Of a stretch of 64,000 bases of DNA, positions 6,699 to 13,164 are shown in pieces. The first letter of the stretch is position 1. Each line of letters opens with the position of its first letter. Below the pieces are notes generated by a model that searched no databases, had not been told where the DNA came from, and saw nothing but the letters and a program-made list of their open reading frames with translations. The DNA is from Ignavibacteria bacterium. GTDB taxonomy: Bacteria > Bacteroidota > Ignavibacteria > Ignavibacteriales > Ignavibacteriaceae. The translations under genes were made by a program, and so were the position numbers. Location: the NCBI GenBank assembly GCA_017302895.1, contig JAFLBV010000005.1, forward strand, positions 1 through 64,000, given 5' to 3'.

Positions 6699-7361
6699 TT
6701 AAACTGTAAAAAACTCTTCGCCGTTGTCTTTTGTGTGGATACTCAATGAACCGGCTCTTACCATCGTTACCAATGTTCTGGATGCCCTTCTTTCGGAGAT
6801 ATTCGCAGCATTTGCAAGATCCTTCACATTGATTTTTTCATGCTTCTCGAGGTAGGAAAAAACTTTTCTTTCGAGATCACCAACCGAAAATTTGACAAGC
6901 GGATTTGAAGAACTTCTCGCCTTGAGAATTCTGATCATTTGTTTCGATGCCGGGATGCTTTTATCGTTCACTCTGATATAAACCTGAGCGGTATTTATAT
7001 CAAGTTCTTCTTTATAATCCTGAATACGATGAGGTTTATTGTCTGATTCCTGAACAAAAACAACTACAAGTTCCTTTTGGTCGATATTGATGAATTGAAG
7101 AAGGAAATCGATTTTCGGGGTTATGTAGAAATTTGTGGTTTCATTTATGAACTCAAGTTCGGTTTTCTCGCTTTCAAGCCCCACCACCTTTTTGTTGTCA
7201 TTTACTCCAAAAATCAGGTAACCGCCTTTGGTGTTGGCGAATGAGATCATCACTTTGGCAATCTTCTCGGGCTCTGTAAACTTCAGTTTGAATTCTGTAG
7301 TGGTGCTCTCACCCTCCTCAATAAGATCGAGCAGGTCTCTTCGTTTGATGAAATTGCTCAA
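6699..7361 (-). CDS. Possible nested gene: AlbA_2 + winged-helix regulator
   Basis: This is an alternative start within the 985-residue frame. TTG at 7361-7359 begins SNFIKRRDLLDLIEEGESTT, exactly where stand-alone AlbA_2/Schlafen-type transcriptional regulators usually begin. An excellent GAGGAGG lies 8 nt upstream (7370-7376 on the plus strand). The product would be about 220 aa: an AlbA_2 domain (residues about 8-140) followed by a winged-helix domain (about 150-220), and would be soluble and cytoplasmic. This resolves the topological conflict of a lipoprotein carrying a DNA-binding domain. The start is inferred from the SD and the domain boundary. Confidence 0.55.
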   Translation of the reverse strand: MSNFIKRRDLLDLIEEGESTTTEFKLKFTEPEKIAKVMISFANTKGGYLIFGVNDNKKVVGLESEKTELEFINETTNFYITPKIDFLLQFINIDQKELVVVFVQESDNKPHRIQDYKEELDINTAQVYIRVNDKSIPASKQMIRILKARSSSNPLVKFSVGDLERKVFSYLEKHEKINVKDLANAANISERRASRTLVTMVRAGSLSIHTKDNGEEFFTV

Positions 7362-9656
7362 TGGTGGTACCTCCTCTTTGATTTCCTCTTTTTTAGGCTC
7401 TTCTATCGTCTTTGAAGACGGAACCGCCTGGGGTTTGGCTGCTGAGTCCTTTTTTGGAATCGCAGTCGAATCGATTTTTGGAACGATCTTTCCTGTTGAA
7501 TCCTTGATTTGAGTTGAAGTCGAATCGATTTTAGGAGTATTCCGTGCAATCGAATCGGCTTTAAGACTGTCCCTGATTACTTTAAGAGAGTCTTCAATTT
7601 TCTTTTTGATACGGGCTTTTTCTTCCTTGTAAAAGTTAACTTTTGGAAGGATCTTGTTTGTAAAGCGAGTTTGCGGATACTTTGCAACGAGTGTATCATA
7701 GACAGCAAAAGCCGAATCCAGCAATTTCAAATCATTTTCCAGAGTGAAACCGGCCGCCAAAAGTGACTTGGGAGCAGTAAATGTTTCGGGGAACTTGAGA
7801 TAAACCGAATAGTATTTCTGAACCGCCTGATGGTAATCTTTTTTCACATAAATGCCCTCGGCTTCTTCAAAAAGAAGGTCGGCAGGTGAAGCGTTAAGAA
7901 TAACTTTGGGCTTCCCGAGTTTATCAGCCGCAAGATTTACAACTGATTCGTTTTTAAAATTATCATAAACCAACTGGAAGATGGAATCAGCAGTCGATTT
8001 TTCATTTTTGTCGAGATAATAAGACCCGAGTGAAAAAAGTGCCTGACCCTTATACCTGGAGTCCGGAAATTCTCCCAGAAGTTTTGTATAATAATTATAG
8101 GCGGAGTCGGGAATTACGATTTCACCAAAAAACACATTTCCAAGGTCGAAATAGACTTTTGACAGAAGGTTTTTGAGAGAATCCGAGGTGATCTGAGGCA
8201 TCACCGGAGCCCACCCTTTTTTTAATGCAGCCACTGTGGCATTCGGGTTGTTTTGACCGGTTGGATCAGGATTGTCTCCTTGTTTCGGTCTTCCTACGAT
8301 CATTTCTTCGTCTAATGGTTCCGAAGGTTTTTCCGGAGCAGGTTTGTTTTTCAGCGAATCCTTGACAGCGAGGAGAGAATCCCTGACTTTTTTTGCTGAA
8401 TCGGTTAGTTCAACGGGAGACTTGAACAGATCTGCGAGCTTGGCATCTGCTGAATCTGCATAGAAATTGAGAGAATCCCTTTTAAATTCCATCGGGTCCT
8501 TCAAGTATGCAAGCTGCCTTGAGTAAACATAAAGATTGGTTTGCAGCCCTTCATATCGCTTGAAGAGATTCGATTTTTCTCTGATTCTCTTTACATAGTC
8601 AGCAGTTGAGGCGCTCTTTTCAGCCTTAATATAATAAATATATGCAGAATCAAAATTTTTCAGGTTGTTCTCGAACATGTCTCCCAATTCAAACCGTGCT
8701 ATTCCCGATGATACCGAGTTCAAAGTAAGTGTATCGAGAGCATAAAGCTGCCTGTAAGCCTCATCATACTGACCGAGTTTTTTAAGATTCAACCCCTTTT
8801 GGAGCATGATTTCGTCAATTTTTTCCTGATATTTAAACTCTTTTGACATTTTTTGAAGATTTTCCTGCGACTCGCCAATCTTGTTCAATGCTCTAAGGCA
8901 GATGCTGTAATTCAGGTTTGAATTATACTCAATTTCAAAAGGGGGTCCAAATCCAAGTGCCGCTTTGTAGGCTTCTGCCGCTTTTTGAGGATCATTCAAC
9001 TTTTTGAAGAAGAGCTCACCGATTTCATACTGTGCTTTTGCTGAGATGTCGTTTGAAATGTCAACTGCAACAAGGTCTCTTAATTTCTGAACGGCTTCGA
9101 GGTATTTCTCTATGAATTTTAGGTACCGTATCTCTTCGATATATACTTCTGACAACACTTCCTTGTCCTCTTCCTTGAGTGCAAGTTGCTTTGCTTCGTC
9201 GAGATATTTTAGCCCTGAATCAAATTTCTTCATTTGGAGCTCGGACTTTGCGAGCCAAAGAGTGGCATCTATAACAAGACTGCTGTTAGGTTGGGTTGCT
9301 ATGAGTTCCTGAAATTTTCGTGAAGCTTTGATGTAACTTCTCTGATAGAAAAAGGCTTTCCCTATAAGGAAGAGAGCATCATCCACATAGGAACTTTTAT
9401 TGTGGAACTGGAGAAGTTTGGAAAATTTTTCAATCACCTTCGGCAGGTTCTGATTGGCTCCGGCTGGAATTGCTGCCTCTGAAATGGCAAAAATATCTTT
9501 TCTCTCTTTGATGATCAGTTCTTCAGCATCATAGTAAAGAGTTTTTGCGTTGTGATAAAGATTGAAGTATGTTGTAAAATCCTGCCAGACACCGCATCCT
9601 GATATCAAAAAGGCGGTTGTGAGCAGGATCAGGGATTTGATTACTTTGAGCTTCAA
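6699..9656 (-). CDS. TPR lipoprotein joined in frame to AlbA/Schlafen-type regulator
   Basis: The 985-residue reading frame begins with a lipoprotein signal (MKLKVIKSLI...LISGC, Cys21) and runs through many TPR-like helical repeats (about residues 50-620), as in outer-membrane tol-pal/BamD-like scaffold proteins. A linker rich in K, D, S and P follows (about 400-460 and again 660-765). From about residue 766 the sequence changes to an AlbA_2 (Schlafen-type) domain (EFKLKFTEP, FANTKGGYLIFGVND, PHRIQDY, VYIRV) and ends with a winged-helix segment (about 915-985). A lipoprotein exported to the envelope should not carry a cytoplasmic DNA-binding domain. A strong internal Shine-Dalgarno and a TTG sit at the join, so the C-terminal part may be made separately. 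Confidence 0.8.
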   Translation of the reverse strand: MKLKVIKSLILLTTAFLISGCGVWQDFTTYFNLYHNAKTLYYDAEELIIKERKDIFAISEAAIPAGANQNLPKVIEKFSKLLQFHNKSSYVDDALFLIGKAFFYQRSYIKASRKFQELIATQPNSSLVIDATLWLAKSELQMKKFDSGLKYLDEAKQLALKEEDKEVLSEVYIEEIRYLKFIEKYLEAVQKLRDLVAVDISNDISAKAQYEIGELFFKKLNDPQKAAEAYKAALGFGPPFEIEYNSNLNYSICLRALNKIGESQENLQKMSKEFKYQEKIDEIMLQKGLNLKKLGQYDEAYRQLYALDTLTLNSVSSGIARFELGDMFENNLKNFDSAYIYYIKAEKSASTADYVKRIREKSNLFKRYEGLQTNLYVYSRQLAYLKDPMEFKRDSLNFYADSADAKLADLFKSPVELTDSAKKVRDSLLAVKDSLKNKPAPEKPSEPLDEEMIVGRPKQGDNPDPTGQNNPNATVAALKKGWAPVMPQITSDSLKNLLSKVYFDLGNVFFGEIVIPDSAYNYYTKLLGEFPDSRYKGQALFSLGSYYLDKNEKSTADSIFQLVYDNFKNESVVNLAADKLGKPKVILNASPADLLFEEAEGIYVKKDYHQAVQKYYSVYLKFPETFTAPKSLLAAGFTLENDLKLLDSAFAVYDTLVAKYPQTRFTNKILPKVNFYKEEKARIKKKIEDSLKVIRDSLKADSIARNTPKIDSTSTQIKDSTGKIVPKIDSTAIPKKDSAAKPQAVPSSKTIEEPKKEEIKEEVPPLSNFIKRRDLLDLIEEGESTTTEFKLKFTEPEKIAKVMISFANTKGGYLIFGVNDNKKVVGLESEKTELEFINETTNFYITPKIDFLLQFINIDQKELVVVFVQESDNKPHRIQDYKEELDINTAQVYIRVNDKSIPASKQMIRILKARSSSNPLVKFSVGDLERKVFSYLEKHEKINVKDLANAANISERRASRTLVTMVRAGSLSIHTKDNGEEFFTV
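7370..7376 (-). promoter_or_regulatory. Internal Shine-Dalgarno for nested regulator
   Basis: GAGGAGG on the minus strand, 8 nt before an in-frame TTG at the border between the linker and the AlbA_2 domain. Confidence 0.55.

Positions 9657-9730: not shown

Positions 9731-13164
<3,434 letters not shown>

Follow-up and report, generated by a model that had tools for sequence, protein, structure and literature searches.

The genome of the Ignavibacteria bacterium GCA_017302895.1 harbours, on contig JAFLBV010000005.1, a long minus-strand frame that joins a lipoprotein and an AlbA_2 protein, and the question is whether this locus gives one protein or two. The frame was found in the window, which is the whole stretch of 64,000 nucleotides analysed here. 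An earlier note on this DNA had reported that a TPR lipoprotein runs without a stop into an AlbA_2 part, and the frame at 9656-6699 (minus strand) and the Pfam matches agree with it. Starting at a TTG, the frame encodes 985 aa, with a predicted mass of 112 kDa for the full precursor and 110 kDa for the mature protein. Its main parts are:

6699..9656, minus strand: one frame, open over 985 codons, that joins a PorW/SprE-like lipoprotein to an AlbA_2-winged-helix protein
7362..9656, minus strand: lipoprotein part of 765 codons, with lipobox LISGC, then TPR repeats and finally a charged tail of low complexity (about residues 690-765)
6699..7361, minus strand: candidate nested gene for an AlbA_2 (Schlafen-like) and winged-helix protein of 220 aa, with invariant E18, E23 and D55

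The lipobox LISGC was read directly in the sequence of the lipoprotein part, and Pfam detected TPR repeats in the N-terminal part of the frame. The top NCBIfam match of the lipoprotein part is T9SS PorW/SprE (NF052312), with 131.6 bits (E 4e-38). Because this score does not reach the curated cut-off of 250 bits, the protein is called PorW/SprE-like. Eight other members of the order are likewise under this cut-off, at 116-172 bits. The genome also possesses a type IX secretion system, including SprA (798 bits) and at least 150 T9SS C-terminal tails among the matches listed. A lipobox together with TPR arrays in a T9SS-bearing genome, by which PorW/SprE proteins are recognised, is thus present, and the upstream product would be a PorW/SprE-like outer-membrane lipoprotein of this system. 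On the strand of the lipoprotein gene, a P-II nitrogen regulator gene and secA lie directly upstream of it (9731-13164, minus strand), and secA is found upstream in all three congeners too.

In the C-terminal part of the frame, SLFN_AlbA_2 (PF04326) was identified at residues 783-903 (2e-23), with 83-88 bits over a gathering cut-off of 25.3. It is followed by a weak winged-helix match (TrmB, residues 926-970, E 0.0014), which is under the cut-off; the model of this C-terminal domain has three helices and two strands, and weak Foldseek matches to ArsR/MarR-type folds. From the internal start onward a self-contained fold is predicted (mean pLDDT 92.9), and the stand-alone product of 220 aa would have a mass of 25.3 kDa. 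The AlbA_2 domain aligned with SLFN14 (E 2e-12) and also matched a chain deposited as CbCash. Residues E18, E23 and D55, invariant in 88 of 88 orthologues of the order, align with E205, E210 and D248 of SLFN13, mutants of which show abolished or diminished RNA cleavage (PMC5862951). The AlbA_2 assignment of the earlier note stands, and its label "DNA-binding regulator" is uncertain, because the carboxylates that make up the Schlafen RNase site are all three retained in the domain. To judge from these residues, an RNA-directed role of the protein is as likely as transcription control. The search against a defence-system library revealed no match for the AlbA protein. The gene is near-universal in the order and uncharacterised, and its product may be an RNase instead of a transcription regulator.

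A search for the AlbA protein covered 164 genomes of the order Ignavibacteriales and found its gene in 147 of them. Whether relatives carry two separate genes here, as the earlier note had asked, can be answered with yes: the AlbA gene is separate in 145 genomes, and it is fused only in the window genome and in a sister species of the same genus (G003), with no further fusion among the 164. The open frame comprises 990 codons in these two genomes vs 118-280 elsewhere, mostly 216-261. No second AlbA copy was detected in the window genome (E<=1e-3).

In all, 89 stretches around the AlbA gene were examined. The AlbA gene lies directly after the PorW-like gene in 51 of the 89, the two fused genomes included, and about one gene away in another 30, which indicates that the neighbourhood is old and the fusion young. 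The PorW-like gene was not found in 8 of the 89 stretches. The intervening gene is a glycosyltransferase-51 transglycosylase in both stretches checked, and in another there is a short stretch without identification. The neighbourhood spans three families of the order, which suggests a functional link with the cell envelope. The PorW-like proteins of many members of family f1 (L037, L039, L040, L052, L053, L060 and others) end in a conserved basic motif, W-N/D-P-R-K/R..., which is missing in the genus of the window genome, where the lipoprotein frame overruns.

At the junction of the two parts, the following elements were identified:

7369..7375, minus strand: internal Shine-Dalgarno (SD) sequence AGGAGGT, within GAGGAGG at 7370-7376; its duplex with the 16S tail of this genome has -13.3 kcal/mol
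7359..7361, minus strand: internal TTG start codon, where unfused orthologues have their ATG

This is the layout from which the earlier note had proposed a stand-alone start, GAGGAGG (7376-7370), 8 nt and TTG (7361-7359), or equivalently AGGAGGT, 7 nt and TTG; the coordinates and the start of the orthologues are both in agreement with it. The AGGAGGT sequence is fully complementary to the 16S tail of the genome (GGATCACCTCCTTTCT), with a duplex energy well beyond the -7.4 kcal/mol of the unfused congeners. The product from TTG 7361 has the length (220/221 aa) and the N-terminus of the orthologues, MSNFIKRRDLL in the window genome vs MGNFIKRRDLL and MGDFIKRRDLL in the congeners. No NTG other than TTG 7361 is present in codons 691-801 of the window genome's frame, and use of the next in-frame starts, GTG and ATG at codons 802-803, would delete the invariant E18 and E23. 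Two features expected of an in-frame nested gene were found: a longer frame that contains an SD with its start codon, and orthologues starting at the same residue.

The use of SD sequences was evaluated over about 464 kb of the genome, with 130 sampled unambiguous true starts and 5048 in-frame internal NTGs. AGGAG or GGAGG precedes 14 of the true starts vs 70 of the internal NTGs, being about eight times commoner at true starts, and SDs are in real but modest use in this genome. A first survey of 37 window genes with poorly defined starts revealed almost no SD use. Duplexes of -13 kcal/mol or stronger were detected at none of the 130 true starts and at five of the 5048 internal NTGs. The bare motif AGGAGGT-N4-10-TTG is not enriched genome-wide (67 places vs 63 for the reversed control) and was discarded as evidence; what counts is position and strength. 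Ribosomes keep the anti-SD sequestered in Bacteroidia, where a very strong SD is active at rpsU (PMC9976891). Since SD use is modest here and the anti-SD is sequestered in Bacteroidia, the strength of the internal SD is not convertible to a rate of initiation. The SD may also be partly incidental, GAG GAG codons being common in the acidic tail. For rpsU (bS21) of the window genome (L173), the start seems to be a TTG and the SD is weak (-4.0), whereas a very strong rpsU SD has been reported for Chlorobia and Flavobacteriales. A simple tie to the bS21 autoregulation of other Bacteroidota was rejected, as rpsU has only this weak SD.

In distant relatives, the lipoprotein and AlbA are encoded by two separate genes. 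The unfused congeners (G001 and G002) also possess two genes, with an overlap of 79 nt in different frames: the lipoprotein is read in the +1 frame for 79 nt beyond the ATG of AlbA before its stop is reached. Two elements of the window genome correspond to this overlap:

7362..7368, minus strand: SD-TTG spacer, net +4 nt compared with the two unfused congeners, merging the frames
7283..7285, minus strand: former lipoprotein stop, now out of frame; TGA here, with TAA at the corresponding site of G001 and G002

The lipoprotein tail of both fused species is in the same alignment frame as that of the congeners through GAGGAG (EEPRK...CAGGAG pairs in frame with EEPKK...GAGGAG); from there, 9 nt lead to the AlbA start vs 5 nt in G001 and G002, where the start reads AGGAG, 5 nt, ATG. 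The indel is therefore placed after the SD, and slippage on poly-A before the junction was rejected as the cause. The alignment indicates that the frames were merged by a net gain of 4 nt between the SD and the AlbA start, in one event or several. The earlier note had suggested that the upstream stop was lost; it was not mutated away, the insertion put it out of frame. TGA 7285-7283 is still present, partly because the Leu-Lys codons of AlbA force those bases. The tail has not regained a stop, and the sites are too few to judge selection on the fusion.

Between the two fused species, dN/dS is 0.046 for AlbA vs 0.034 for lipoprotein residues 1-680. The distance of AlbA to 84 outgroups is 0.44 for fused and unfused congeners alike, and the fused forms retain 56 of the 59 highly conserved AlbA columns. 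These comparisons indicate that AlbA has been under strong constraint since the fusion, evolving as slowly as in unfused species. Across the whole gene, no stretch unchanged between the two fused species is longer than codons 752-782, which span the internal start (P = 0.001 for such a run at the start site and 0.03 for one anywhere, in a test on one species pair, there being only two fused genomes). The starts of genes are often conserved for other reasons.

The in-frame nested gene suggested by the earlier note is in line with the 145 separate orthologues and with the TTG that matches their N-terminus, and very probably the locus gives two products, a 110 kDa fusion and a 25 kDa AlbA protein made by internal initiation. 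In the ancestor of the genus, the lipoprotein frame would have overrun the AlbA start by 79 nt in a different frame, and in the lineage of the window genome and its sister the 4 nt gained between the AlbA SD and start would have brought it into the AlbA register. Ribosomes from the lipoprotein start would now read on to the AlbA stop, and the resulting 110 kDa lipoprotein would carry an AlbA tail in the periplasm that serves no purpose. The initiation site of AlbA, with AGGAGGT, 7 nt and TTG, has been retained, and the 25 kDa protein would still be made from it and keep its original job in the cytoplasm. The frames, the homology, the indel and the conservation are seen directly in the sequences; synthesis of both proteins and their opposite locations are what we infer from them.

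Published work on related proteins bears on such a tail. In F. johnsoniae, secretion does not require the disordered C-terminal end of SprE, of which the last 112-113 residues are dispensable, and SprE tagged C-terminally with HaloTag is fully functional (PMC10994853). PorW of P. gingivalis binds PorN through a C-terminal extension that many homologues lack (PMC8754138). As the SprE C-terminus is dispensable and tolerates a tag, the fusion is plausibly tolerated, and the 220-residue tail on the periplasmic side is, by this analogy, plausibly harmless ballast.

Synthesis of the full-length fusion only, with the AlbA domain in a periplasmic role or as a dead tail and the SD as a by-product of Glu codons, is unlikely. 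The single frame is open and common to two species, and GAG GAG in an acidic tail yields SD-like sequences by chance, as the bare motif at control level illustrates. However, a dead tail would decay, and AlbA remains constrained as in unfused relatives, with no acceleration and the invariant residues intact; the genome has no other copy of a gene that nearly all relatives possess, and nowhere is the gene more conserved than around the start. It is very improbable that the fusion is a sequencing or assembly error concealing the two-gene layout of the congeners. Errors often shift a frame by 1 nt, and both genomes probably come from metagenomes, but the fused frame is shared by two genomes with differences at 263 of 2958 positions (8.9% DNA divergence between the window genome and its sister species), which hence are separate sequences. 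Moreover, the net change is 4 nt, the spacer is without a long homopolymer, and the upstream A6 run is in the congener frame.

Recoding can hardly be the explanation either. A +1 shift near the end of the lipoprotein would lead to the TGA of TTGA and terminate the lipoprotein there, with coupled reinitiation at AlbA; in both fused species the +1-frame TGA does overlap the TTG, and an A6 run is located about 35 nt upstream. Nevertheless, no recognised +1 shift signal is present, the A6 run is not positioned as a classical zero-frame slippery heptamer, in the window genome the +1 frame does not open before -44, and there is nothing that requires a shift to be explained. Within the nested-gene reading, the arrangement may have been kept as regulation, with lipoprotein-translating ribosomes crossing the AlbA start and the unusually strong SD, in a phylum where the anti-SD is often hidden, admitting only particular ribosomes or low traffic; this we consider unlikely. 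If it were true, a Schlafen-like protein, perhaps an RNase, would be made inversely to the synthesis of the secretion system.

Taken as a nested gene, the locus completes a natural series from separate genes over an out-of-frame overlap to an in-frame fusion, in which a gene becomes nested with its own start kept. The series also illustrates how a dispensable C-terminus permits nesting. The output of gene callers would be a single 985-aa "lipoprotein-regulator fusion", and a protein that is nearly universal in the relatives would go unnoticed. The analysis also points to PorW and AlbA genes being neighbours across the order, with the Schlafen-type triad intact.

Similar to PorW/SprE (PMC8754138, PMC10994853), the lipoprotein part has a lipobox, TPR repeats in the N-terminal half, a low-complexity C-terminal tail and a T9SS-bearing genome. 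It differs in its NF052312 score (131.6 vs 250 bits) and in the C-terminal AlbA_2 protein, which in the sampled relatives is attached only in the sister species. The nested protein shares the AlbA_2 fold and the E-x4-E ... D carboxylate triad with Schlafen/AlbA_2 proteins, such as SLFN13, SLFN14 and the bacterial DIP2311 (PDB 3lmm), but it has just one short AlbA_2 domain, with a winged-helix-like domain behind it, and no Schlafen pseudo-dimer, and its activity is putative. In-frame internal translation starts are an already known phenomenon, of which this locus is a new instance. As with Cas11b of the archaeal type I-B CRISPR system (PMC11899642), a shorter C-terminal protein would be translated from its own start in the same frame. 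Cas11b is a subunit of the same complex as the longer product; here, two ancestral genes with products in opposite cell locations would have been merged by an accidental joining of frames.
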